Source: Halorussus limi (GTDB lineage: Archaea > Halobacteriota > Halobacteria > Halobacteriales > Haladaptataceae). From it: a stretch of 64,000 nt of DNA. The DNA is taken from contig NZ_CP096662.1 of the NCBI RefSeq assembly GCF_023238205.1, forward strand, positions 1 to 64,000. Reading direction: 5' to 3'. A program made the position numbers and the translations under genes. How positions within the stretch are numbered: position 1 is the stretch's first letter; every line of letters begins with the position of its first letter. The notes under the pieces were generated by a model, which saw only the letters and a program-made list of their open reading frames with translations, was not told where the DNA came from and did no database searches. Shown one piece after another: positions 46,502 through 61,612 of the stretch.

Positions 46502-47554
46502 ATGGCGGACGCACCGGAAACCGAACGGCAGGCGGTCGAACCCGATGCGAGAGAGGTCCTCACCGTGTCACAGCTGAACGACCGGATTGCATCTATCGTC
46601 GAGGAGATGCCTGCCCTCAACGGTGTCCGCGGTATTGGCGAAGTCACTGACCTCCACCAGAACAGTACGGCGCTCTACTTCACGCTCACCGACGGCGACG
46701 CTGAACTCCCCTGTATGATTTGGGCGAACCGCTACCGGGATATGGACGCCGAGCTCGAAGACGGCACCGAGGTCATCCTCGAGGGCGATATCGACTACTG
46801 GGTCGAAGGTGGGAAAATCGACCTCAAACCGTGGGAAGTGATCGTCGTCGGCGACGGCGACCAGGCGGCCGCAGTCGAGCGACTGCGAAGCGAACTCGAA
46901 GAGCGTGGCTGGTTCGACGACGAGCAGAAACAACAACCACCGGCGTTCCCGGAGCGGGTCGGCGTCGTCACTTCTCTCCGGGGGGACGCCCAGTACGACA
47001 TCCAGAACGCGATCCACGAGCAGGACCCCACCGCCGATATCCTGGTGAAGGACGCGACTGTCCAGGGATCGGAGGCGCCGACGTCCATCGCGAACGGCAT
47101 CCACCACCTCGACCGCTCCGAGGACGTCGACGCGATCATCGTCGGTCGCGGCGGCGGGAGTGATTCGAACCTCCAAGCCTTCAACACCGAGCGGGTCGCG
47201 GAGGCGATCTTCACCGCGAACACGCCGATCATCACCGCAATTGGGCACACTGATGACCAGCTAATCGCTGATCAGGTGGCGGATGTCGCGACGATCACGC
47301 CGACGGCCGCCGGCGAGTATATCGTGAGTTCTCGCGAGGAGTTCCTTGCGAGTGAGGTCGAACCGCTGGAGCAGCAACTCGAGGCTGCGTACGAAACTTT
47401 CCAGCAGGAGCACGAACACGAACAGGAACTCGTCGAAGCAGTCGACGAGGCGGCCGCACCTGAGGGGGTTCCGCCGATCTACTACAAGGCCGCAATCGCT
47501 GTGCTGCTGTTGCTGTTGTTGGTCATTACCGGACTGTGGCTGGGGGTGATCTGA
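46502..47554 (+). CDS. xseA: exonuclease VII large subunit with C-terminal membrane anchor
   Basis: 350 aa. OB-fold NTD: LTVSQLNDRIASIVEEMP, VRGIGEVTDLHQNSTALYF. Catalytic part: RVGVVTSLRGDAQYDIQNAI, IIVGRGGGSDSNLQAFN and GHTDDQLIADQVADVATITP, all matching XseA (bacterial GHExD reads GHTDD). The long bacterial coiled-coil region is reduced to about 50 residues and followed by one hydrophobic helix (AAIAVLLLLLLVITGLWLG) at the end. It would degrade single-stranded DNA with XseB, apparently at the membrane. Confidence 0.88.
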   Translation: MADAPETERQAVEPDAREVLTVSQLNDRIASIVEEMPALNGVRGIGEVTDLHQNSTALYFTLTDGDAELPCMIWANRYRDMDAELEDGTEVILEGDIDYWVEGGKIDLKPWEVIVVGDGDQAAAVERLRSELEERGWFDDEQKQQPPAFPERVGVVTSLRGDAQYDIQNAIHEQDPTADILVKDATVQGSEAPTSIANGIHHLDRSEDVDAIIVGRGGGSDSNLQAFNTERVAEAIFTANTPIITAIGHTDDQLIADQVADVATITPTAAGEYIVSSREEFLASEVEPLEQQLEAAYETFQQEHEHEQELVEAVDEAAAPEGVPPIYYKAAIAVLLLLLLVITGLWLGVI

Positions 47555-48648: not shown

Positions 48649-50385
48649 ATGAAACAACGAGAGCTCTCCGTGCTAATGGCCGCCCTGTTCGTGACGGGCC
48701 TAGTCACGGGTCTCGTTACTGCAAGCCCGCCACGGCCAGGTACGGAGGGGAATGGACTCACTGCGAATGAATCAGCGACGCTGTGGTCTCGCGACGCGGA
48801 CAACTACATCAGCCAGGAGGAGTACCAGCAGCGATACGGCGAGGACCGTTCCGCTGTCCATCAAGTAGCAAACGGGACGGATATCACGTTCAAACGGCCG
48901 CCGGAGACTGCGGCAACGTGGACGCGGAACGACTTCGAGGACCTCGACGCTGGCGGAGCAGATACTTCCATGCATCCGCAGCACGCGGACCTTGAGGACG
49001 GTGTCTTCATCGAGGATGCCCACGCCACCATCTTCGCGGTCCAACCCTCTACCCGAGGACACCTGGAGTCCGGAGGGACACCGTTGTACATCGCGCCGAA
49101 TGGGACGATGCGCGGATTCGTTGATTACCGGGTTCGCGTGCCCAACGGGAGTTCCTCCGGCAACACGACTATCTCGTGGTCTCTCACGGAGCACGAGATC
49201 GAAGAAGTCCGGTTGAAGAAGAACGGGGAGACCATCGCGACGCAGGACGGGACCCATACGCCCGCTCTCGATTACCGGATCGAAGATGACTGGAGCGCGA
49301 ATCTCACGCTCGAAGCGGAGATCAGCGTCCGTCTAAAGAAGACCACCCGAACTAACCACGGCAATCAGACGGACGTCGACGTCACCTATCGGACGGAATC
49401 ACGCAACGTTTCCGATTCGATCGCCGTCGAGATCTACGACCTCTCGGCGTATCCCTACTACGCCGAGTATCCCAATGGCGACGCTGGTGTGGCTATCTTC
49501 CAGTCCCGCCCGTGGCAGGGGTACACGCTCACGGAGAATGGAAGCGCACGAGTGCGTGGCGTCTGGCGGTTTTACACGGCCCGCAACACCAACTGGGACA
49601 CGCTCGTCCGGTCGAACCGGACCGACAGCGCCACCGTCGAGTCGGATGCGATTCCAGTCTATGTTCACGCGTTCCCGTCGCGAATCGGCCCGAGGGCTGA
49701 ACCAGTTCGCGATGGCCCAGAGATTATCGACACCTGGGGCACTGACCGACCGTCTCCGGACGGAACTATCGGCGAGAACATCAACATCGACATCGTCAAC
49801 CAGTCGTACACGACGACGTACGGCGTCGCAGTTCGTGCCGAGACAGTCGACCGCGACGCGCTCCAAGTTGCGGGGATCGTACGGGGTGTGAATGCCTCGA
49901 TTGTGGCACCTGATGCTGGCTCTGAGCGGCAGCTCCGGCGCAGTAATCTGACTGTTGAGGTTCTCCGGCAGAACGAAAGCCAGGCCACACTCCGCATCGA
50001 ACTCCGGGACAACGATACCGGCGCCCCAATCGTGCTCAGCGATCCCGACCGACGATATCCAATCGGCGGGAACACTCGCAACGGCTACATCACCATCGCG
50101 GAGCAACGCGTCGAGACCAACGCCTCCGGGGTAACGATCGTGACGATCGACGAGCCGGGCATCTACACGGCTCGGTACCACCCAGGCTCGTGGCTCGGGC
50201 ACAACCCCGCGTATGTGAGTGCGACGGCAACTGCTCGGTGGCATCCGCTCGGCACCATTGCCGGTTGGTTCGCGTTCATTCTCGAGGTCGGCTGGCAGCT
50301 CATCCCGTTTATTGTGATGTTCTACGCAGGCAAGCGGCTCCTCCGAATGCTTGGTCCAGAAGACATCTTCCAACGGAACCCATAG
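48649..50385 (+). CDS. surface glycoprotein anchored by a C-terminal helix, T4SS operon
   Basis: 578 aa. N-terminal signal (VLMAALFVTGLVTGLVTA) and a final membrane helix (AGWFAFILEVGWQLIPFIVMFY). The large outside part is beta-rich with many N-x-S/T glycosylation sites (NGT, NES, NGS, NAS) and no known domain. Between the pilin-like and lipoprotein genes; a cell-surface adhesin or mating-bridge protein is the natural guess. Confidence 0.7.
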   Translation: MKQRELSVLMAALFVTGLVTGLVTASPPRPGTEGNGLTANESATLWSRDADNYISQEEYQQRYGEDRSAVHQVANGTDITFKRPPETAATWTRNDFEDLDAGGADTSMHPQHADLEDGVFIEDAHATIFAVQPSTRGHLESGGTPLYIAPNGTMRGFVDYRVRVPNGSSSGNTTISWSLTEHEIEEVRLKKNGETIATQDGTHTPALDYRIEDDWSANLTLEAEISVRLKKTTRTNHGNQTDVDVTYRTESRNVSDSIAVEIYDLSAYPYYAEYPNGDAGVAIFQSRPWQGYTLTENGSARVRGVWRFYTARNTNWDTLVRSNRTDSATVESDAIPVYVHAFPSRIGPRAEPVRDGPEIIDTWGTDRPSPDGTIGENINIDIVNQSYTTTYGVAVRAETVDRDALQVAGIVRGVNASIVAPDAGSERQLRRSNLTVEVLRQNESQATLRIELRDNDTGAPIVLSDPDRRYPIGGNTRNGYITIAEQRVETNASGVTIVTIDEPGIYTARYHPGSWLGHNPAYVSATATARWHPLGTIAGWFAFILEVGWQLIPFIVMFYAGKRLLRMLGPEDIFQRNP

Positions 50386-50388
50386 TCC

Positions 50389-51225
50389 ATGACTAGAAAC
50401 CACCCACACATCAGTCGGCGAACCGCCCTCCGAACAGTCGCAGGTGCTGCGCTCGTAAGCGTCGCTGGTTGTCTGAACGACAATGGCGGTTCTGGGACGC
50501 CTAGTGACGGAACGACCTCTCCAGATGGAAACGGCCCACTCACGCGTATTACTGTCGAGGGGACAACACTCGTCGTCGAACTCTCCGAAGAGGCCGACGT
50601 CGACCAAGTCAACCTCATCCAACCGAACGGCGAGCTATTCGGGAAGCGTGACGTAGCTGCGGGTGCTCAACAGGTCTCGTTCGAGATCGGCACCGCGTAT
50701 GCGTCTGGTGAGTACCGCGTACTCGCGTTGAAGGGTGAGGAGACAGTAGTTGAGACCACGACTGAACTCCGTCCAGAGATTCAGATACAGGATGTTGGAC
50801 TCTATCGAAATAATCCAGATAAGCCGTGGGACGAAGTCTATGGCGAGAGCGAGACGGACCGGATCAAGAATGGCGAGGCTTTCGTCACGGTAGAGAACAC
50901 AGGGAGTGGCCCGGAAGCGATAACTGAACTGGTTTTCTCGGGAGACGTTCCCAATCCAATTGAGAATCCCAGAGGTAGTGGGATATACGAAGCTGATCAG
51001 GTCGTAGTCTCCCCTGGCGAGACAATCGACCTGTTCAGTAATTCGTTCCCGTTCGGTTCAGAGAGTGAGGACGGAATGGGGTGTTCCCCAGACGGTAACA
51101 GTGGCCAGTTTACGGTTGTCGTCGAGACCCGAGTCAGTGGAAATCGAGTCACGAGTACCTACGACGTCCAGTACTCCGGATCTGACGAGATGACTGACTG
51201 TGAGGCCACGATCACGGAGGCCTGA
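50389..51225 (+). CDS. Tat lipoprotein of the T4SS operon
   Basis: 278 aa. Signal: SRRTALRTVAGAALVSVAGC; lipidation at Cys28. A Gly/Ser/Thr linker, then two beta-sandwich-like parts (VEGTTLVVELSEEADVDQV; FVTVENTGSGPEAI). Three bp after the glycoprotein gene and two before the VirB6-like gene. Probably an extracellular part of the transfer apparatus, comparable in position to a VirB7-type lipoprotein. Confidence 0.72.
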   Translation: MTRNHPHISRRTALRTVAGAALVSVAGCLNDNGGSGTPSDGTTSPDGNGPLTRITVEGTTLVVELSEEADVDQVNLIQPNGELFGKRDVAAGAQQVSFEIGTAYASGEYRVLALKGEETVVETTTELRPEIQIQDVGLYRNNPDKPWDEVYGESETDRIKNGEAFVTVENTGSGPEAITELVFSGDVPNPIENPRGSGIYEADQVVVSPGETIDLFSNSFPFGSESEDGMGCSPDGNSGQFTVVVETRVSGNRVTSTYDVQYSGSDEMTDCEATITEA

Positions 51226-51227
51226 CG

Positions 51228-52343
51228 ATGGTTGATCTCATTGACGTCGTCCTTGAGGGTATCAAGGGCGTCGTTGATTGGTTCATCGGACTGTTTATGA
51301 ACGGTCTCAGATCGGGGTATGAGACTTTGACTGAGGGAATGTTCGGAACCCCGACTCCAGAGACGAATGGAGCCTTTGTCTTCGGTGAACCAACCAATGC
51401 ACCCTGGCCAGCGATTCACGATGCTCTCATCGGCGGCGAAATTATGCTGATCGCCCTTTTGCTCCTCGTAATGAGCGTTCAGGGGCGTCACACTGTTCGG
51501 ATCTTCAATATTGGAAGTGCCTACGAAGCCCGAAAAACGAAGAAGACGGCCTGGGTCGGAGCCTTTCTAATCATTACGTGGTATTGGGTTGGAACTCTCG
51601 CGCTCTACCTCGTCGACGGCTTCACCATTGCACTGATGCCGGAGCTTTCCTCCGTAGCCTCGGCAATGCTTCAGTTCTTGGGAACAGCCATTACAAATCC
51701 CGGATTGGGGCTATTGTTCGCCGTGATTGGTGGAATCTCAATGTGGGCTCTGGAGGCGCTGTTCTACATCCGGATAATTCTGATTTATGTCTACCTGTAC
51801 GGAATGCCGATCGCTATTGCACTGGCCTACGGAAACATTCCGGTCGTATCCGATATCGCGATGGGGTTCTGCAAACGGTTTGTCCCGTTGGCTGTCCTCC
51901 CGCTCCCGGCCGCGATGATCCTCAAGGGATACGACTTGATCTACTCCGGTGGGACACTCACGCCAGGAACAGCGTTCCTCAAATACCTCGTCGCCGCATC
52001 GCTCCCACTTGTTGCCCTCTACATCACGTGGAAGACGTTCAAATACGCGACGCCATTGACGGCCAAAGTCGTCGGCGGTGCGACGAAAGGCGCAGCACTC
52101 GTCGGCGGTGTCGCCGCCGGTGGATACCTCGCTGGCTCCGGCGTCGCGACGACTGCCGCTCGATGGGGGCCAAAAGCCGCCGCCGGCCACGCCGTCGCGC
52201 AAAAAGCAGCTGCCCGCGGTGGGCATGGAGGAGACGATGGTGGTACGCCGTCGTATCGCCGAACGGAGAATGACCCAGGTGGAGCAACAACGGAATCGGC
52301 GAGTGACGACCGTGGAATGGAGTTTGATCGAGGAATCCACTAA
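51228..52343 (+). CDS. VirB6/TrbL-like polytopic membrane protein
   Basis: 371 aa with about six or seven helices (IMLIALLLLVMSVQG, GAFLIITWYWVGTLALYLV, ALFYIRIILIYVYLYGMPIAIA, LVAASLPLVALYI) and a long Gly/Ala-rich hydrophilic tail (AAGGYLAGSGVATTAAR). The layout and position (before VirB4 genes) fit VirB6/TrbL. No enzymatic motif. Likely forms the inner-membrane channel. Confidence 0.68.
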   Translation: MVDLIDVVLEGIKGVVDWFIGLFMNGLRSGYETLTEGMFGTPTPETNGAFVFGEPTNAPWPAIHDALIGGEIMLIALLLLVMSVQGRHTVRIFNIGSAYEARKTKKTAWVGAFLIITWYWVGTLALYLVDGFTIALMPELSSVASAMLQFLGTAITNPGLGLLFAVIGGISMWALEALFYIRIILIYVYLYGMPIAIALAYGNIPVVSDIAMGFCKRFVPLAVLPLPAAMILKGYDLIYSGGTLTPGTAFLKYLVAASLPLVALYITWKTFKYATPLTAKVVGGATKGAALVGGVAAGGYLAGSGVATTAARWGPKAAAGHAVAQKAAARGGHGGDDGGTPSYRRTENDPGGATTESASDDRGMEFDRGIH

Positions 52344-52345
52344 CA

Positions 52346-53467
52346 ATGTCAGCAGATCAAGACGCAGCCGCACGGCGCATCATGGATCAGTTCGGCGAGG
52401 AGAGTCGCATCCCGTATCTCAATATCGAGGAAGGGGACGTCGGCATGCTCATCGCCTTCCCCATTATTGGGCTGTTTATCGCTGGCCTCACCGGGATCGA
52501 GTCGCTTGCCCTCCCGTTCGTCGCTGGCGGGCTTGGCTTTGGCGTCGCCGTCATCTACGTCTCACCAACCCACCTGAACGCCTGGACGTGGACCAAAGAC
52601 GTCTATCGGTACCTCAAGCGGCCTCAGGTCACGTTCAGTGCGCCCGCCGAAGCCGACACGAGTACCAACGAGTCAGAGCGGAACGAGGGTGGACTCGCGA
52701 ACTACACGCCGTTCAAGCCGGACGAGCGAACGCAGGACCTCACGAACATCAAGCGAGCGTGGCCAGGCGCTGGTGCCATCCAGCGTGAGGACGGCGCGAT
52801 GGAGGCGTTCATCGAAATCGATCCAGCCAACATGGACTTCGCGATGTCCGACGACTGGGCGCAGCTCCAGGAGGCAGGCGAAGAGTTCGCCAACAAAGAG
52901 CTGGACTCGAAGCTCAAACTTCACGCCACAACCCGTTCATTTCCGGTGGAGCAGATCACCGAGACCATCGAGGATCGACTCACTGACGAAGACGTCACGG
53001 AAAACCAGATCTTCCGGGAACTCCTCGAAGAATACCGGGAGACACGTCCGAAGGAGATGCGTGACCGGGGCATCCAGCAGGTTCGGTACTACATCGGCGT
53101 TGAAGTCAGCCCGATAGAGGTGTACGACCGCTTCCGCGACGAGGGCACCCCCGCCGAGAAGCTGACCCAGTTCCCGGTCATCGGGTTCCTGTTCAACCCG
53201 TTCGTCACCCGCCGCGAGGACCTCACCGACGTCGAGCGCCGTGCCCAGATGTTCGAGAAACTCGACAGTCGCGTCAACGACGTTCGCTCCGAGTTCATCC
53301 AGCAGGCGTCGGGGTGGTCCGCACGCCGGCTCAGCACGGTTGAGCTGTTTGTCCTGAATATGGACTTCTGGAACGGCCGCGAACACGACTACGACGAGGC
53401 GGAGCGTGTCGTTCGCGACCAATCGATTATCGGCCACTCGCGCCGGGAGGACCCACACGATGCGTAA
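52346..53467 (+). CDS. VirB3/PrgI-like helices fused to a VirB4 N-terminal domain
   Basis: 373 aa. Residues about 30-85 carry two membrane helices (MLIAFPIIGLFIAGLTG; LPFVAGGLGFGVAVIY), as in VirB3/PrgI. Then a soluble CagE/VirB4-N-like region follows (WTWTKDVYRYLKRPQ; QREDGAMEAFIEIDP; LTQFPVIGFLFNPFVTRR). No Walker motifs. The following gene supplies the ATPase half, so VirB4 is split in two here. Overlaps that gene by 8 nt. Confidence 0.7.
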   Translation: MSADQDAAARRIMDQFGEESRIPYLNIEEGDVGMLIAFPIIGLFIAGLTGIESLALPFVAGGLGFGVAVIYVSPTHLNAWTWTKDVYRYLKRPQVTFSAPAEADTSTNESERNEGGLANYTPFKPDERTQDLTNIKRAWPGAGAIQREDGAMEAFIEIDPANMDFAMSDDWAQLQEAGEEFANKELDSKLKLHATTRSFPVEQITETIEDRLTDEDVTENQIFRELLEEYRETRPKEMRDRGIQQVRYYIGVEVSPIEVYDRFRDEGTPAEKLTQFPVIGFLFNPFVTRREDLTDVERRAQMFEKLDSRVNDVRSEFIQQASGWSARRLSTVELFVLNMDFWNGREHDYDEAERVVRDQSIIGHSRREDPHDA

Positions 53468-55667
53468 CGTGATCCTCCAGACAGGTGGTGGCGCGCTTGG
53501 CCCCGTCGCCGGGTGGCTCCAGAACCTGACACCAGCAGAGGGTGCAGTACTTGCACTCCTGGTGGGCCTCGTTCTCGGTGTCGGCAGCAAACATCTCTGG
53601 GACCGCTTCACTGCGGATGATGAACCAGACGTGGACTTTACGGATGTCCTCGACGAGGAGACACTCAAAGAAGGCGAGGCCGAACGCCAACTCCTCGATG
53701 ATATCTCCGAGTCGCACAAGACCGTCACCGCGCCCGGAGCTGTCGAGTGGGAAACGCGAGCCGCACGGGTCGGCGAGCAGTGGACGACGACGCTGTATAT
53801 CGCTAACTATGCCGACTACCCCAACGACGGGTATCTGAGCGACCTCTTCGAGCTGACCGATGTCGAGTTCGACCTCACAGCGCACATCACGCCGAAAAAT
53901 CAGGAGCGAGCCCGGAACGAACTGCAGGACATCGCTGACGACCTTCAGGTCGACGCTGACCTCGAACAGAGTATCCGGAGCGCCTATCTCCAAGAGCGCG
54001 CCAACGATGCCGCAGCGACGTACAAGGCCGTCGAGAACGGCGCGAACGTCTTCGACCAGGGGATGTTCGTCACGGTTCGCGCTGACGACAAGGACGACCT
54101 CAGGGACTCCGTCCAGAAGGTCAAGAGTGCGCTCCGCGATGATCCAGCGAACCTCACGCCGAAGACAGCGATCTGTCGCCAGGACCTTGCCCTCCAGTCC
54201 GCCGCACCCATTGGCGACAACGAGTTCGGTCGCGAATCCATCGCCCTCGGTGGAGCCGTTGGCGCACTGCTCGCGTCGCCGCATAACGCGACTATCCTCG
54301 AGGAGGGCGGCGTCGAGTTCGGGGTTCACAAGGACAACCAGAGCCCCGTCGTCATCGACCCGTTCGCCCGGGACAACGGCTACGCGATGTTCACCGTCGG
54401 CGACACGGGCTCCGGAAAGTCGTTCAGCTCCAAACAAAACTTCATCCGCTCCATCGAGCAGAGCAAGGACCGCATCGGCATCATCCTCGAACCCCTGAAC
54501 AACTGGGCCGGCGTCTCAGAGGCGCTCGACGCCAAACGCATCACCGTCGGTGGGACGCTCGGGCTGAATCCGCTGGAAATTCGAGAGACACCCGAACACG
54601 TCCAGCGGGCGATGGGCGAGGACGCGAGCCCGTTCAACGAGAAGCTCGACGACGCGATGAGCTTCCTCACGAACTTCTTCGCGCTCCGCGGCATCTCGCT
54701 GGGTGACCGCCGCACCACGCTCGAACTCGCCCTCAAACGTGCCTACCAGCGCAAGGGCATCACCGACGACATCTCTACGCACGACAACCCGAGTCCAACC
54801 ATCCGGGACATGATGGACGTCTTCGAGGATATGGTCGACGAGCCCGAGGAGTTCGTCGTCCGATCCGACGAGGAGGCAGGGAAGATCAAGGACGACGCGA
54901 CGTGGTTGCTCGATCAGCTTCGCCCCTTCGAGGACGACGGTCGCCACGCCAATCTCGGTCAGGCGTCGGACTTCGACATCCGGGACGAGAAGGTCATTTA
55001 CCTCGATCTCGCCCAGCAGGAGGGCAGCGTCGACAGCAGCACGGCGCTGACGATGCAGCTGTTGATCTCGCTGGTGTACGAGCGGGCGAAGGTCTCAGAC
55101 AAGGAGGTCGTGTTCTACATCGACGAGGCACGCTACATTATGCAGGATGCCGCGAGTTTGGCGTTCCTCGAAACGGTGTTCCGGCACCACCGCCACCACG
55201 ATCTCTCGATTCGGCTGGTCACGCAGACCGTCGATGAGTTCTTCGAGCACGCTGAGTCCGAAGCGATCCTCGACCAGTGTGCGGTCAAGCAGTTCCATCG
55301 ACTCGACGGGATGGACGAAGAGTGGGCCGACGAGTTCGGGCTGAACTACGCGCAGATGCGGTTCGTCCAAGATGCCGTCCCCGGAAACGAAGATGCGGGC
55401 TTCTCCGAGGCACTGGTCGGCGTCGACGGCGAGTGGCGCGGCATCCAGGTCAAAGCGATGCCCAAGGAGAAGGAGGTTATCGACTTCGAGCCAACCGAGC
55501 AACGGCGATCCTCGCTCCCCGGTACTGGCGAGATTGCTGTGGACGCGGACGTTCAGGCGTTCCAGGACGACATTGAAAGCCGAACGACCGACAACGGACA
55601 ACTTCCACCTGAGCGGACGCCAACAGAGACTGATGGTGGCTCAGAGGGAGGTGACGACGATGCGTGA
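53460..55667 (+). CDS. VirB4-type secretion ATPase
   Basis: 735 aa from ATG 53460. An N-terminal helix (GAVLALLVGLVLGVGSKHL), a VirB4-N remnant (TAHITPKNQERARNEL), then the ATPase: Walker A TVGDTGSGKSFSS (about 311-320), Walker B EVVFYIDEARYIMQD (about 548-555), sensor region RLVTQTVDEFF. Powers pilus assembly or substrate transfer at the membrane. The stop is overlapped by the next start (ATG 55660). Confidence 0.9.
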   Translation: MRNVILQTGGGALGPVAGWLQNLTPAEGAVLALLVGLVLGVGSKHLWDRFTADDEPDVDFTDVLDEETLKEGEAERQLLDDISESHKTVTAPGAVEWETRAARVGEQWTTTLYIANYADYPNDGYLSDLFELTDVEFDLTAHITPKNQERARNELQDIADDLQVDADLEQSIRSAYLQERANDAAATYKAVENGANVFDQGMFVTVRADDKDDLRDSVQKVKSALRDDPANLTPKTAICRQDLALQSAAPIGDNEFGRESIALGGAVGALLASPHNATILEEGGVEFGVHKDNQSPVVIDPFARDNGYAMFTVGDTGSGKSFSSKQNFIRSIEQSKDRIGIILEPLNNWAGVSEALDAKRITVGGTLGLNPLEIRETPEHVQRAMGEDASPFNEKLDDAMSFLTNFFALRGISLGDRRTTLELALKRAYQRKGITDDISTHDNPSPTIRDMMDVFEDMVDEPEEFVVRSDEEAGKIKDDATWLLDQLRPFEDDGRHANLGQASDFDIRDEKVIYLDLAQQEGSVDSSTALTMQLLISLVYERAKVSDKEVVFYIDEARYIMQDAASLAFLETVFRHHRHHDLSIRLVTQTVDEFFEHAESEAILDQCAVKQFHRLDGMDEEWADEFGLNYAQMRFVQDAVPGNEDAGFSEALVGVDGEWRGIQVKAMPKEKEVIDFEPTEQRRSSLPGTGEIAVDADVQAFQDDIESRTTDNGQLPPERTPTETDGGSEGGDDDA

Positions 55668-58600
55668 GTACCTTCGCGTGACGCCAACCTCCGAACGCCT
55701 CAATCCGGAGCGTCTACCGCAGGCACTGGAAAGTCTTCACAAACTGACCTCAGCGGACTCAGCAGGGCTAGTTGACAAACTCAATCCTCTACATAGCGAA
55801 ACACCGCTACGATTCGAATTCCTCGCGCTCAGCGAGGGTGCAGACGACCCCGTCGAATTCTACTACGGTGCCGACGACCATCTGGATACCCTTGAGAAAC
55901 GACTCCGGTCGATCTATCCAGAGACGTTCGACATCGAGCGTTCCGAGATCGACATCGCATCCCGACTCGTACAGCCTGTCGAATTCGACCGCGAGACATT
56001 CGTCGAGCACTATGAGTCAGGCGAGCTCACGTACGAGTTCGGCCCTGACGAGCAATACGAGAGTGGCACTGACGACAACAGTCAAGCGGGGTCAGGGGAC
56101 GCCGAATCAGTCGCGGATGGAGGAACGGTCGGCGATCAGTCTGCCGACCACTTCATCGAAATCGAAGATACTGTCCTCGAACTCGCCCCACCAGATGCGA
56201 TTCCCGAGGATGAGCCACTCACGACGCTTGCCAAACCAACGGTAACATCGAAGGGGACGATACTCGCGCGGCCAGCGATCGAGACCGTCTCCCCACTCGG
56301 CGTGCGGTGGCAAGGGTCGGCAACTCGGAAGCAGGACTGGATGACGTCACTCTCACCATTTACTGCCGACGACGAAGCAGAACTCCCCGCGGTCGATCAG
56401 CCAGGGGGTGCGCTCGCGTCGCTTGTCGACCACCTGATGGAGGCGACAGCACCAGTAGCGTTCCAAGTCGTCTTCCAACGACGCGAGAGCTGGCAGTCCG
56501 ATGCCGATCTTCGCAAGGAGGACGTCATCGACGGTCGAGACACACTCGCCCAGGAGATTATTGACTCCCTCTTCGAACTCAACGATCAGTCGGAGAGCCG
56601 GGACAGAAACCAGCTGAGCGACGCGGTTGCAAAACGTGTCGCGGCAATCGAGGCGAAAAATCCGAAGCGGTCGTTCACCGCGAACATCCGAGCAATCGGG
56701 ATTCCATCCGGTGACGACGGTCGCGGTGAACTCGATGAGCGAATGCAATCACTTGTCCCGGTATTCGACCCGCTTGACGGGCCGTACTACGAGGTGGAGG
56801 CTGAACGGTTGCGCGACAACGGCTTGCGGCAGGCCAAGAAAGAACAGCACGCACGATCCGCACTCCACCGACTCTTGGATCGTGAGATCACGACCGGCCG
56901 TGGGAAGACCCGACCGGAGTTCGTCCTGAGTGGCCGAGAACTCGCGAACTTCGTACTCGTACCCTCCTCGGAACAGCTTACTGTCGAGGGGACACGTGGA
57001 ACGCGTGCGGAACAGCAGAGTCGGAATCCGTTGCCCCGTCCCCACCAGGACCTCATGAGCGAGTTCCGAGACGGGATGGCAATCGGGTACGCCCTCAACG
57101 ACAACGGCGAGGCCGAAGACGTGCCGACACACATTCCACCCGGACTGCTGCCCACTCATTACGGCCGGTTCGGAACAACCGGCTCTGGGAAGTCGAAAGC
57201 CCTCATCAACGACATGCTGTCGCTGTACGACAACACCGAGGGACCGACGATCCTCATCATCCCGAAGAACGACGACATGGCCCAGAATTATATGCGGGCT
57301 CACGCGCGTCGGTTCGGAATGACCGACCTCGAAGAGAACGTCGTCCACTTCCCGATCCCGGACGTACTCCCCGGGTTCTCGTTTTTCGATCTCGAACCGT
57401 CGATGGAGAGCGGACGGCGCCGCGAAGACGCCGTCCAACGGAAGGCCGACCACTACGAAGAGATTTTGAAGCTCGTGATGGGGACCGACCGCTACGAGCG
57501 AGCGACTGTGGCCCCGACTCTCATCAAGACACTCATCAAAACACTGTTCGACGAGGAATACGGGCGTGAGAACGGGCTGTACCGAGCGTCGACGGACTAC
57601 TTCGCCCACCGACAGCTAGAACACGTCGTCGACCAGCTCTGGGAGGCCGGGCCACCGAACGAGAACATCGGCGATGCCCCACGGTCGAGCGATGAGGAAG
57701 TCACTCGGACGATTCGACGGCAGCTCCAGTTAGATTCGAACACCTTCGCGAACGTGATGGGCGGTGTCGGAAACCGCCTTGCGTACATTTCACAGGATAC
57801 GCACCTGCGGCAGATCTTCAATAATACCGAGAACCAGTTCGACTTTCGGGATGTCCTCGACGAGGATACGGTCATCCTCTTCGACCTGGGCGACCTCCGC
57901 GACGACGCCGCCCGGATTATGACCGGTGTGATCCTGACCAATCTCGATGCAGCCCTCAAAGATCGCAAACAGGCGCTCTCCGAGCACCCGGACGACTACG
58001 TCGTGAACTTGCTCGTCGACGAGGCAGCGTCGGTCGTGGTCTCCGACATCATGAACGATCTCCTCGAGAAAGGGCGGGGCTTTCGCCTCTCTGTCGGCCT
58101 GTCGATGCAGTTCCCCGAACAGATGGAGGCCGAAGGTGGGCGGAAAATCTACCTGAACGCCCTGAACAACATCGGCAGTTCGCTTATCGGGAAAATCAAC
58201 GTCGACCGGGAGCTGGCGCGAGCGATGGCCCACGAAGAAATGGACCCCGCGGATTTCGCCAATCGGATTCGTTCGTTACCGCGCGGAGAGTGGATCGCTA
58301 GCCTGCCAAGCCCGACGTTCGGTGAAACGGGGCCGTATCCGTTCAGTCTCGAACCACTCTCGATTCCACCGGGGCACCCCGAGAGTGAATGCCCGCTCAC
58401 TGAGCGTGAAGAGGAAGAGTTCACTGAGACGCTCTCCTCGATGCACGAGCACATCAGTAACGAACACGGCGTGCCGGCTGCAACAGACGCCTCAACAACG
58501 AGACCACCTACCGACGGACACGAGGTGCTCGATATCGGGAGTGACGATCTGGACATCGCGATTGCGAAGGTGGTTCGGAGTCTCCAGCTTCGAGAGGGCT

Positions 58601-59955
58601 GCCGTGAAGAGAACGGCTGGGTGGCTGTCGAAGCAGTTGACGACGAACTCAGACGGCTCTTCGACGACGTCGACGCCGAGCCGCCATCGTATGATGCACT
58701 CGCGGACATCCGAGAACGATCACGATACCTCGATACGACCGTCGATATCGACGCCGACGAGCTCCGCATCCGGCTCACTGAAGCCGGAGCGGAGGTCGCT
58801 ACGCCCGATACTGGTGGCGTGCAGGCCGCTGGTGGGAGTGCCCACGACGCAGCACTCCGCCAGATCGAAGAAGAACTCACTGCACTCGGTTTTACCGTCT
58901 CGATTCTCGCACAGGATGGCAGCGAGAAACCTGACGCGAGGGCGAGCCACCCCGACGTTGACGACCGATTCGCTATCGAAGTCGAAACGACAACACCCGA
59001 GAATCCCGCGAAGGTACTCACGAACCTCCGGAAAGCCCAAGCATCAGGGGATATCCCCCTGTTTGTCGTTCGACCAGGAAACGACGAAACGGAGTGGGCC
59101 AAGCGCGTTGACGGCATTCTCACACCACCCGTTCGTACCCTTCAGAATGGTGAGACTCGGTTCTACACGACTGACTCGAATCTCACGTTCAACGGCGGGG
59201 CAACCGAAGAAGGTGGAGTAACGGCCGTGCGACCGGCGACCGACGACGAGAACGGGACCCAGAACATCTGGCAACGTGATGGCGAAGAGATCGTCCTTCG
59301 GGATGCCAGCGGGACAGAACACATCCGCCTCCCGTCGCTTGGAAAACTCTCGAAAGATCGTGTTCCAGCCATCTACAGCTACGATCACGCTGCCGACGAG
59401 TACGTCGTATACGAGCACGGTGAGCAACACATCTACGAGACGAAATCGGCGTTCGAGGACGACTGGGTGCGTGTCAAGAAGCCATTCGTCCCCGAAGCCG
59501 AACTCCAGACACCTGATTATAGCCCCACGTCGTACGCTATCGTCATTCTCCCTGAGGAAGGTGACCCGGTCGTGTACGATACCGACGGTACGTACTCGAT
59601 GGACACCTTACTCGATACCGTCACCACAAGTGAGTGCGAAGAAACGACAGGAGAACAGGCTGACCATATCCAGCAGGCACCTCAGCCATCGATTGACGAT
59701 ATTGCTGATGATCCAGAGGCGGTGGTTGAGCGATTCGCAGAGACACACCTCGTTGAAGACCCGCAAAGCAGAGTAGCCGCCGGAGATGTCTACGATATCT
59801 ACGAGCAGTGGGCTGAAGCTCACGGAATTGATACAGATAGCAAACCTTGGTTCGGTCGTCGCCTCGGGAACTATGTCACGTTCGAGCGGAACACAGACAG
59901 TGAGAACGGCGACTCTGTTCGATACTACGAGGGGCTTGCACTCAAATCAGAATAG
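55660..59955 (+). CDS. giant T4SS ATPase (TraD/VirD4- or HerA-like) with nuclease-like and winged-helix tails
   Basis: 1431 aa. Residues 1-480: large N-terminal part, partly VirB4-N-like. Residues about 490-950: ATPase with Walker A GRFGTTGSGKSKALI (about 501) and Walker B VVNLLVDEAASVVV (about 781), then QFPEQMEAEGGRK. Residues about 1063-1157: HDAALRQIEEELTALGF, then KPDAR, FAIEVETTT and NLRKAQASG, reminiscent of a PD-(D/E)XK nuclease. Residues about 1347-1430: GDVYDIYEQWAEAHG and PWFGRRLGNYV, like the winged helix closing D5-type plasmid/viral primases. A coupling protein that may also bind or cut DNA. Last gene of the operon. Confidence 0.8.
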   Translation: MREYLRVTPTSERLNPERLPQALESLHKLTSADSAGLVDKLNPLHSETPLRFEFLALSEGADDPVEFYYGADDHLDTLEKRLRSIYPETFDIERSEIDIASRLVQPVEFDRETFVEHYESGELTYEFGPDEQYESGTDDNSQAGSGDAESVADGGTVGDQSADHFIEIEDTVLELAPPDAIPEDEPLTTLAKPTVTSKGTILARPAIETVSPLGVRWQGSATRKQDWMTSLSPFTADDEAELPAVDQPGGALASLVDHLMEATAPVAFQVVFQRRESWQSDADLRKEDVIDGRDTLAQEIIDSLFELNDQSESRDRNQLSDAVAKRVAAIEAKNPKRSFTANIRAIGIPSGDDGRGELDERMQSLVPVFDPLDGPYYEVEAERLRDNGLRQAKKEQHARSALHRLLDREITTGRGKTRPEFVLSGRELANFVLVPSSEQLTVEGTRGTRAEQQSRNPLPRPHQDLMSEFRDGMAIGYALNDNGEAEDVPTHIPPGLLPTHYGRFGTTGSGKSKALINDMLSLYDNTEGPTILIIPKNDDMAQNYMRAHARRFGMTDLEENVVHFPIPDVLPGFSFFDLEPSMESGRRREDAVQRKADHYEEILKLVMGTDRYERATVAPTLIKTLIKTLFDEEYGRENGLYRASTDYFAHRQLEHVVDQLWEAGPPNENIGDAPRSSDEEVTRTIRRQLQLDSNTFANVMGGVGNRLAYISQDTHLRQIFNNTENQFDFRDVLDEDTVILFDLGDLRDDAARIMTGVILTNLDAALKDRKQALSEHPDDYVVNLLVDEAASVVVSDIMNDLLEKGRGFRLSVGLSMQFPEQMEAEGGRKIYLNALNNIGSSLIGKINVDRELARAMAHEEMDPADFANRIRSLPRGEWIASLPSPTFGETGPYPFSLEPLSIPPGHPESECPLTEREEEEFTETLSSMHEHISNEHGVPAATDASTTRPPTDGHEVLDIGSDDLDIAIAKVVRSLQLREGCREENGWVAVEAVDDELRRLFDDVDAEPPSYDALADIRERSRYLDTTVDIDADELRIRLTEAGAEVATPDTGGVQAAGGSAHDAALRQIEEELTALGFTVSILAQDGSEKPDARASHPDVDDRFAIEVETTTPENPAKVLTNLRKAQASGDIPLFVVRPGNDETEWAKRVDGILTPPVRTLQNGETRFYTTDSNLTFNGGATEEGGVTAVRPATDDENGTQNIWQRDGEEIVLRDASGTEHIRLPSLGKLSKDRVPAIYSYDHAADEYVVYEHGEQHIYETKSAFEDDWVRVKKPFVPEAELQTPDYSPTSYAIVILPEEGDPVVYDTDGTYSMDTLLDTVTTSECEETTGEQADHIQQAPQPSIDDIADDPEAVVERFAETHLVEDPQSRVAAGDVYDIYEQWAEAHGIDTDSKPWFGRRLGNYVTFERNTDSENGDSVRYYEGLALKSE

Positions 59956-60046
59956 ATCTGGAGGTGAATACAATGCAATCCACACTCAGCGCCAAATATA
60001 TCGTAAATGCAAATTTGAGTTTTCATAATATGAAATTCCTCTCGCA

Positions 60047-60220
60047 TTACGGAAATATCGAGGCATATCGTCTCCGCAGCACCGAAATAAGCAAACGGCG
60101 AGTTGTTACGGCAATCAGCCGAAATGCCGTAACACAAGCATTCTGGAGATATTTTGCCGTATGCACGTATCGGGAGCCTCAAACCCAGGATTTCGCGGAG
60201 TTGGGTGATCTGTTACGGCA
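60047..60220. repeat. iteron-like TGTTACGGCA sites, candidate origin or regulatory region
   Basis: TGTTACGGCA occurs exactly at 60104-60113 and 60211-60220 and inverted at 60125-60134; partial copies are at 60047 (TTACGG) and 60155 (TGCCGTA). The first two form an inverted repeat with an 11-nt spacer. The non-coding, AT-rich interval 59956-60343 lies before the primase-polymerase gene. This looks like a replication origin or operator; no proof. Confidence 0.5.
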
Positions 60221-60343
60221 AAAACCAACTAGTATAGAACGGGGGGTCCCCGTTGGGACCAAGGGATTGGATCGCGACGTACAGCTGAGTGAGTTCTGTG
60301 CTGGCTCACAGCCAGTGAGAGCCATGCAAGGTGCTACGTGAGG

Positions 60344-61612
60344 ATGAGTGAACCTATGATCGACGAGCCGGAGGCGATTCCGGAGACGTTACGCGACCGC
60401 GAGCAGTGGGTGTGCTGGCGGGAAGCAGAGCGAGACGGCAAACCGACGAAGATTCCGGTGACGCCAGGGGCTGGGGGGTTCGCGTCAGCAACAGAGTCAG
60501 AGACCTGGGCGAGTTTCGAGGCAGCACTTGACTACAGCGAGACGGAGCACGCCGATGGCGTCGGGTTCGTGTTTACTGACGACGACTCCATCGTCGGCGT
60601 CGATCTGGATGACTGCCGCGATCCCGAAACAGACGACGTCGACGACGCAGCGCTGGACATCATCGAGCGACTCGACTCCTATACGGAGATATCGCCGTCC
60701 GGCACCGGCTATCACGTCCTCATCAGGGGAGAGCTTCCGGACGGCCGGAACCGGCGCGGGAGCGTAGAACTGTACGACACAGCACGCTTTTTCACCGTCA
60801 CTGGCGACCACGTCGAGCGGACACCCACTCGCGTTGCACGCCGGCAGGACGCGCTCACAGCGATTCACCGAGAGTACGTCCAGGACACCGAGCGAGACCC
60901 AGCATCCGAATCCGAGCAGCGTGATGGCACTGACGACCGGTCACCGACGACCGATACGGTCGACGCCGTCGTTGACGTCGACCTTGAAGACGAGGACCTC
61001 CTCGAGAAAGCGCGAAACGCATCGAACGGCGAGAAGTTCGAGCGGCTCTGGAACGGAAATACGGTCGGCTACGACAGTCAGTCCGAGGCCGACATGGCGC
61101 TGTGCTGTTTGCTGGCGTTCTGGACCGGCGGCGACCATACGCAGATGGATCACCTGTTCCGCCAGTCAGGATTGGTTCGGGAGAAGTGGGACGAGGTCCA
61201 CTACGCTGACGGGTCGACGTACGGCGAGAAGACCATTGAGCGAGCGATTGCGACAACGCCGGAGTTCTACGACCCGGACGCCGGCGACGACGCCACAGAT
61301 CCTCATGGCCCACCAGACGGGGTCACAACTGGCGGGACGCCTGACGACGCAGACCGGAGTCGTGCGTATCTGGCTGAGAAAAACCGCTTGTTGACCAATC
61401 GGGTCGACGAACTCGAGGCAACACTCGAACAGAAGACTGAGCGGATCGAGACTCTCGAAGCAGAGGTCGAGCGGCTCACCGACGAACTCGATGCCCGTGA
61501 CCGGGAGACTGAGCAGCCCCACGAAGAAGAACCCGGTACTGCGGGCGAGACCGGTGATGACTCAGAGCCAGCCTCTCTGTTGAGTCGATTCTTCGGTGGT
61601 CGGTCCGAGTAG
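60344..61612 (+). CDS. archaeo-eukaryotic primase-polymerase (NrS-1/PrimPol-like)
   Basis: 422 aa from ATG 60344; GTG 60338 is in frame. AEP core in the first 170 residues: REQWVCWREAERDGKPTKIP (opening), acidic catalytic motif IVGVDLDDCRD (about 83-93), SGTGYHVLIRGE (about 119-130) and LYDTARFFTVTGDH. Residues about 225-310 match the helper domain of such enzymes (FERLWNGNTVGYDSQSEAD; CLLAFWTGGD). The end is a coiled coil (about 345-390) instead of a helicase. Primes and/or copies element DNA. Confidence 0.85.
   Translation: MSEPMIDEPEAIPETLRDREQWVCWREAERDGKPTKIPVTPGAGGFASATESETWASFEAALDYSETEHADGVGFVFTDDDSIVGVDLDDCRDPETDDVDDAALDIIERLDSYTEISPSGTGYHVLIRGELPDGRNRRGSVELYDTARFFTVTGDHVERTPTRVARRQDALTAIHREYVQDTERDPASESEQRDGTDDRSPTTDTVDAVVDVDLEDEDLLEKARNASNGEKFERLWNGNTVGYDSQSEADMALCCLLAFWTGGDHTQMDHLFRQSGLVREKWDEVHYADGSTYGEKTIERAIATTPEFYDPDAGDDATDPHGPPDGVTTGGTPDDADRSRAYLAEKNRLLTNRVDELEATLEQKTERIETLEAEVERLTDELDARDRETEQPHEEEPGTAGETGDDSEPASLLSRFFGGRSE

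Follow-up and report, generated by a model that had tools for sequence, protein, structure and literature searches.

How is plasmid DNA prepared for conjugal transfer in haloarchaea when the usual nicking enzyme, the relaxase, is missing? Reviews describe archaeal conjugative plasmids without a recognised relaxase, the DNA processing of which is left unexplained (PMC12857230, PMC9905601). This question is raised by a gene cluster on a 168,596-bp contig (C4) of the haloarchaeon Halorussus limi, of which the first 64 kb (hereafter the window) was analysed. The cluster encodes a 1431-aa coupling ATPase with a nuclease-like and winged-helix tail, and the intergenic region 3' of its gene contains a set of short repeats and a conserved core. 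The comparisons described below make it probable that this coupling ATPase uses its own origin-processing tail instead of a separate relaxase, giving a haloarchaeal conjugation system with a built-in relaxosome. A more specific version is put forward tentatively: motor, site-specific nickase and origin reader would be united in one polypeptide, HUH relaxases being excluded from this relaxase-free archaeal conjugation, with at least two tail families and with a modular origin of fixed core and swappable repeats that non-conjugative plasmids also use.

Coupling ATPase and its exchangeable tail

The coupling gene and the parts of its N-terminal two-thirds are as follows.
55660..59955, + strand: coupling ATPase (VirD4/HerA-like) with nuclease-like and winged-helix tail, 1431 aa
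55660..56283, + strand: N-terminal region, residues 1-208, no transmembrane helix, maximum Kyte-Doolittle (KD) value 1.36
56284..58494, + strand: motor region, residues 209-945, common to homologues with other tails
57166..57204, + strand: Walker A motif RFGTTGSGKSKAL, residues 503-515
58003..58035, + strand: Walker B motif VNLLVDEAASV, residues 782-792

The start codon of this open reading frame (ORF) lies inside the 3' end of the VirB4-like gene (53406-55667), and the annotation of a 96% identical plasmid places the start nine codons further upstream. With a RecA-like motor, Walker A and B motifs, and VirB4 and VirB6 genes beside it, the product is, as judged from the sequence, a VirD4/HerA-type coupling ATPase. 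The FtsK/HerA-type motor named in the original prediction was thus confirmed, by the presence of both Walker motifs and by relatives that exceed the curated cut-offs for DUF87, TraG-D_C, T4SS-DNA_transf and TrwB_AAD_bind; the matches of the 1431-aa protein itself to the first three of these families were below threshold. VirD4, TraD and TrwB of type IV secretion share with it the HerA/FtsK motor and the VirB4 and VirB6-like partners in the cluster, but here N-terminal membrane helices were not detected, a tail of about 480 residues with nuclease-like and winged-helix domains is added, and the cluster is devoid of a relaxase. A hydropathy scan of the N-terminus for a transmembrane anchor gave no hydrophobic segment above KD 1.4; such an anchor is the mark of the classical TrwB/VirD4 form, not of every coupling protein.

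Relatives were found in 181 of 72,556 plasmid records, nearly all haloarchaeal, and in 124 of the 195 genomes of the class, and are currently named by PGAP 'conjugal transfer protein' or 'primase-like DNA-binding domain-containing protein'. The coupling protein as such is therefore widespread, not unique to the window and not new, although its design appears unexplained in the literature found; the role originally suggested for it was a good guess. Among viral contigs, no relative of the tail was found. Comparison of 100 loci led to four kinds of coupling protein, types A to D. Type A has the build of the protein in the window; type B has the same N-terminus and motor (53-57% identity up to residue 945) but ends in another tail; type C combines a diverged motor with the tail of type A (34-37% identity); and type D has a diverged motor and tails that are type B-like or related to type B. 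Since motor and tail are combined differently across these types, the sequence comparison indicates that the tail is an exchangeable module.

Three other observations were made on this family. The type B coupling genes (L063 12677-15069; L070 5328-7726) overlap a PriS-like primase gene, which is followed by a gene for a cysteine-motif protein of 503-505 aa that may be PriL-like. In Haloquadratum walsbyi J07HQW2 (L031), a 3.6-Mb scaffold carries the coupling gene in a broken form with 91-97% identity, which points to recent spread and decay of the gene. The motor (residues 499-876) resembles the PADLOC model mad8 (E 3e-8; 5e-21 for the type C locus L083), and given this likeness, defence-system scans may mislabel coupling proteins of this family.

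The C-terminal end of the tail was assigned with the help of profiles and structure models.
59725..59952, + strand: D5/RFX-type winged helix, residues 1356-1431, proposed repeat reader

The Pfam family Pox_D5 was matched in 26 of 34 members (best E 3.3e-8) and RFX_DNA_binding in six. The AlphaFold model of this domain reached a predicted local distance difference test (pLDDT) score of 82-91, and its best PDB matches were DNA-bound proteins, RFX5 on the nucleosome (template modelling (TM) score 0.85) and RFX1 on the X-box (TM 0.87). The last 75 residues or so are thus, according to the model, a genuine D5/RFX-type winged helix, and the D5-like tail originally predicted was upheld. The C-terminal winged helix is shared with D5/P4-type primase-helicases and RFX proteins, but the coupling ATPase differs from the former in having neither a superfamily 3 (SF3) helicase domain nor a primase domain.

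Candidate transfer origin downstream of the coupling gene

The 382-bp intergenic region between the coupling gene and the next gene, for a primase, contains a two-part site, which is common to relatives and located directly 3' of the stop codon of the coupling gene.
60047..60220, + strand: repeat array, with TTACGG at 60047, TTACGGCA at 60106-60113 and 60213-60220, TGCCGTAA at 60125-60132 and TGCCGTA at 60155-60161
60221..60256, + strand: candidate transfer-origin core AAAACCAACTAGTATAGAACGGGGGGTCCCCGTTGG, conserved among relatives
60338..61612, + strand: NrS-1-type AEP primase with HBD domain (PDB 6k9a, E 9e-36)

The consensus of the core across relatives is ACCAACTAGTATAGA-n-CCCGTTGG, in which the left part, ACCAACTAGTATAGA, hardly varies. 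Upstream of the core are three to five short repeats, the type of which varies by plasmid: TTACGGCA in the window, and GTTCCACCCA, GGTCAGGG, GTTACGACAG, TGTCCACGCA, TGTTCAGGGCAAA or TGTCCAGGGTAAA in other plasmids. The exact 16-mer AAAACCAACTAGTATA occurred 33 times in 22 of the 195 genomes and a looser core pattern was found in 33 of them, neither giving a hit on the control (reversed, for the 16-mer). Core matches in plasmid records are located outside annotated genes, and in phage records no core was found. A single-strand hairpin in the core was not significant (z -1.6 at best). The type B loci share no 14-mers, and hence no type B origin was found. A short ORF (59964-60341) within the intergenic region was judged not to be a gene, as it is taken up by the repeats and the core, which differ in type from one relative to another. 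In many type A and C sites (intergenic regions of L083-L098), a second fixed element resembling CGCAAGACGG was observed among the repeats.

Copies of the site also occur apart from the transfer genes. Haloferax gibbonsii plasmid pHG4 (35,465 bp) carries Orc1/Cdc6 and ParA genes, no transfer genes, and a relic of this region. In comparison with its closest relative L051, the end of the coupling protein is 71% identical with nine gaps and the start of the primase 57% with 27 gaps, and the repeats are 85% identical and the core is 32/32. All five repeat copies were retained while the flanking coding DNA decayed, the footprint that, from the sequence pattern, a site maintained for use in trans would be expected to leave. 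Further isolated copies were found in Halobacterium sp. DL1 and Natribaculum breve.

The location of the site between two genes of the same direction would also suit a promoter or operator, through which the coupling protein, by means of its winged helix, would autoregulate the primase operon downstream, and winged helices are common regulators. In pHG4, however, the gene after the site runs in the opposite direction, so that the site is not a promoter there, and the isolated copies that combine repeats with core do not precede the primase gene. A coupling motor with a built-in regulator is not known to us from any other system, and regulation of this kind is considered highly improbable. The core as a promoter of the primase gene was rejected, since it tracks the tail and not the primase in the 20 loci described below and is present without primase in pHG4.

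A conserved core, reader-specific repeats near transfer genes, and presence on plasmids without transfer genes are among the features by which an origin of transfer (oriT) is recognised, and these were found here; the segment 60047-60256 is thus a newly recognised candidate transfer origin, well supported by sequence comparison. The closest known origin design is that of the staphylococcal pWBG749 family, in which an identical core is combined with variable repeats that are determined by the DNA-binding protein reading them, and in which, as here, mimic origins are carried by non-conjugative plasmids (PMC8136818). In pWBG749, origin reading (by SmpO) and nicking (by the relaxase SmpP) are divided between two proteins, whereas in the haloarchaeal system the reader and a putative cutter are fused to the motor.

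Association of core and repeats with the tail

Nearly every type A and type C locus has the core, and all type B and D loci lack it. Since it is missing even beside type B motors, which are 53-57% identical, the core does not follow the motor. Of the 20 primase-bearing loci compared, the core was present in seven of the eight with the tail (at least 40% identity) and in none of the 12 without it (hypergeometric 8/77520, p ~1e-4). The core does not follow the primase either, because primase loci without the tail have no core, including L193, L196 and L197, the primases of which are 73-76% identical to that in the window. On this comparative evidence, the core appears to accompany the tail, not the motor nor the neighbouring primase.

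The same loci bear on the idea that the core is the priming site of the NrS-1-type primase, for initiation on a single strand, and that the tail does not act on it. The start site of NrS-1 PrimPol is 5'-TTTGGTTA (PMC8718748), and the lower strand of the core, 5'-AGTTGGTTTT, resembles it, a likeness that counts against a role of the tail; the core also adjoins the primase in most loci. A priming site is nevertheless very unlikely, given the lack of the core beside the closely related primases of L193, L196 and L197, the presence of the primase in 100 of the 195 genomes as against 33 for the core, and the retention of the core in pHG4, where the primase is missing.

Covariation of the repeats with the coupling protein was examined pairwise in 42 non-redundant loci, the pairs not being independent. 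All 74 pairs with more than 85% identity in the nuclease-like domain but less than 60% in the winged helix share no repeat, and the pairs with the same winged helix (n=63) have a mean repeat similarity of 0.945. The partial rank correlation of the repeats was 0.47 with the winged helix given the nuclease-like domain and 0.13 in the reverse test (permutation p 0.0005). Taken together, these comparisons suggest that a change of C-terminal winged helix goes with a change of repeats. The claim that the protein binds the origin in 59956-60343 is strongly supported on this basis: the site there is conserved, its repeats covary with the winged helix, and its core occurs together with the tail.

Physical linkage alone could produce the same covariation. 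Repeats and winged helix are within about 0.5 kb of each other, and the DNA homology between repeat-type groups begins exactly and sharply at the core edge. Being neighbours on the DNA, winged helix and repeats could be swapped in a single recombination event without functional matching, which is a reservation on the interpretation preferred here. Linkage as the sole cause has, in our estimate, a small chance of being correct, because the five repeat copies were kept in pHG4 despite the decayed flanks, and the same repeat types are present in distant plasmids with different bodies.

Nuclease-like domain

The middle of the tail was divided as follows.
58549..58803, + strand: probable first winged helix, residues 964-1048, from low-confidence secondary structure
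58822..59130, + strand: nuclease-like domain, residues 1055-1157, with invariant H1062, D1063, E1070, D1092, E1107, E1109 and K1118
59137..59694, + strand: conserved linker domain, residues 1160-1345, no assigned fold

The original prediction pointed to a PD-(D/E)XK-like stretch, KPD...EVE...K, which corresponds to residues 1090-1092, 1107-1109 and 1118. In 73 type A and C sequences (about 16 effective sequences, with identity down to about 35%), H1062, D1063, E1070, Q1085-D-G, P1091, D1092, E1107, E1109, T1112, P1116, K1118 and N1122 are invariant. The pattern resembles a PD-(D/E)XK active site in which E stands for the usual K, a replacement that is also known in BamHI. The tails of type B and D contain an invariant H..D..ExE..D..K, which cannot be aligned reliably with the type A and C tails; hhalign brought the H, D, ExE and K positions of both families into register, but with a probability below 1%, and homology between the families is accordingly not claimed.

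The motif part of the prediction was therefore retained and the fold part was not: the stretch seems to be more than a chance motif, yet no proof of a nuclease fold, which AlphaFold did not confirm. Structure prediction of the tail, proposed originally as a check, gave a confident model of the winged helix but not of the nuclease-like domain (pLDDT about 45); in one model of the latter, at that score, the order of helices and strands fits the alpha-beta-beta-beta-alpha-beta core. The proposed cutting activity has the invariant active-site-like pattern behind it but no fold, and from that pattern we infer that the domain may be a nuclease.

The alternative that deserves most attention is transfer of double-stranded DNA as by Streptomyces TraB, in which the winged helix would load the motor on the repeats, no strand would be cut, and the nuclease-like domain would be an inactive DNA clamp or a structural part. 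TraB is FtsK-like, binds the 8-bp repeats of clt, and moves double-stranded DNA without a relaxase (PMC4170104, PMC12857230). By comparison, the layout is shared, a motor with a winged helix reading short repeats (clt/TRS in Streptomyces) beside its own gene, and no confident fold was obtained for the nuclease-like domain. TraB, however, works without a type IV channel, whereas VirB4 and VirB6 are present here, a conserved core adjoins the repeats, two tail families keep their active-site-like residues without variation, and an adjacent primase gene (AEP in types A and C, PriS-like in type B) fits single-strand transfer. Transfer of the TraB kind is thus regarded as unlikely, even though it is the main rival.

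Relaxases in haloarchaeal plasmids

Contig C4 gave no match to motifs or profiles of HUH relaxases. The only HUH-type relaxase match of the genome (PF03432; L205 617-1983) is located on contig C2, together with a NikA-like partner; a profile search of the genome for PF08751 and PF03389 found neither, and PF13814 (replication-relaxation) was not found in the genome, where the control was equally silent. Relatives of the C2 relaxase are carried by 21 plasmids, mostly of Haloarcula, and by none of the core-bearing records. MOB-suite classified 20 of these 21 relaxase-bearing plasmids as non-mobilizable.

In the four HUH-relaxase loci that were opened (L214-L217), the next gene encodes a coupling protein of 521-844 aa, which matches neither tail profile, and no core was found. 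Conversely, none of the tail-bearing loci collected contains this HUH relaxase, and the sole record found by both searches, NC_014299.1, has a tail match of just 30% identity, 176 kb from the relaxase. Relaxase and tail therefore look like alternatives in haloarchaeal plasmids, as judged from their distribution. The suggestion that the protein could replace a relaxase is supported in this way, the coupling proteins of relaxase-bearing loci being short and accompanied by neither tail nor core. The haloarchaeal HUH relaxases at the same time qualify the published claim that archaeal conjugative plasmids are relaxase-free (PMC9905601, PMC12857230).

Proposed mechanism

In the proposed system with a built-in relaxosome, the C-terminal D5/RFX winged helix would bind the repeats 3' of the gene, a step strongly supported by the covariation and giving plasmid-type specificity, and would thereby place the hexameric motor on the repeats. 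The whole conserved tail would act on the core ACCAACTAGTATAGA-n-CCCGTTGG, as supported by co-occurrence, and the nuclease-like domain would probably nick at or near the core, using H1062, E1070, D1092, E1107, E1109 and K1118. From the gene context, the HerA-type motor may then feed the strand into a VirB4/VirB6 channel, and the adjacent AEP primase may start the complementary strand. A primase gene is also present beside the type B coupling proteins (PriS-like), which favours single-strand transfer. Archaeal HerA-NurA, proposed as a source of single-stranded DNA for Ted/Ced transfer (PMC9905601), is similar in combining a HerA-type motor with a nuclease, but HerA and NurA are separate proteins without a site reader, and NurA is not the domain found in the coupling ATPase.

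Several other findings weigh against this proposal. The motif reads ExE instead of ExK, with the lysine nine residues further on; two AlphaFold runs from a shallow alignment gave a pLDDT of about 45 for the nuclease-like domain, which also had no PDB or Pfam profile match. The GTTGG arm of the core is missing from some type C plasmids. L058 has the tail without the core, its primase being a fragment, L201 has the tail and the primase without a recognisable core, and L117 has the core and the primase without the tail.

If correct, the proposal could explain haloarchaeal conjugation without the usual nicking enzyme, and many haloarchaeal plasmids typed as 'non-mobilizable' (180 of the 181 here) could be predicted to be conjugative or mobilisable. 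It offers a concrete answer for DNA processing in haloarchaea, with named residues, a candidate origin of about 200 bp, and pHG4 as a natural non-conjugative plasmid carrying it.

Neighbouring genes

The transfer cluster upstream of the coupling gene consists of the following genes.
53406..55667, + strand: VirB4-like conjugation ATPase, by profile matches
52346..53467, + strand: 373-aa conserved conjugation-cluster protein with a hydrophobic stretch at the N-terminus
51228..52343, + strand: TrbL/VirB6-like membrane protein (PF19590, E 1.9e-136)
50389..51225, + strand: 278-aa exported-type cluster protein
48649..50385, + strand: 578-aa surface/membrane cluster protein

Just upstream of this cluster are the genes for Exonuclease VII, unusual in archaea, of which the large-subunit gene (46502-47554, + strand; PF02601, E 1.2e-52) adjoins that of the small subunit; they are kept in the Halorussus vallis plasmid NZ_CP100003.1. 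The segment 27619-46209, also conserved in NZ_CP100003.1, contains plasmid-borne genes of ion and cyclic di-AMP (c-di-AMP) functions, including those for a diadenylate-cyclase-like protein, amino-acid permease/UspA fusions, a TrkA channel, and Na/H exchangers.

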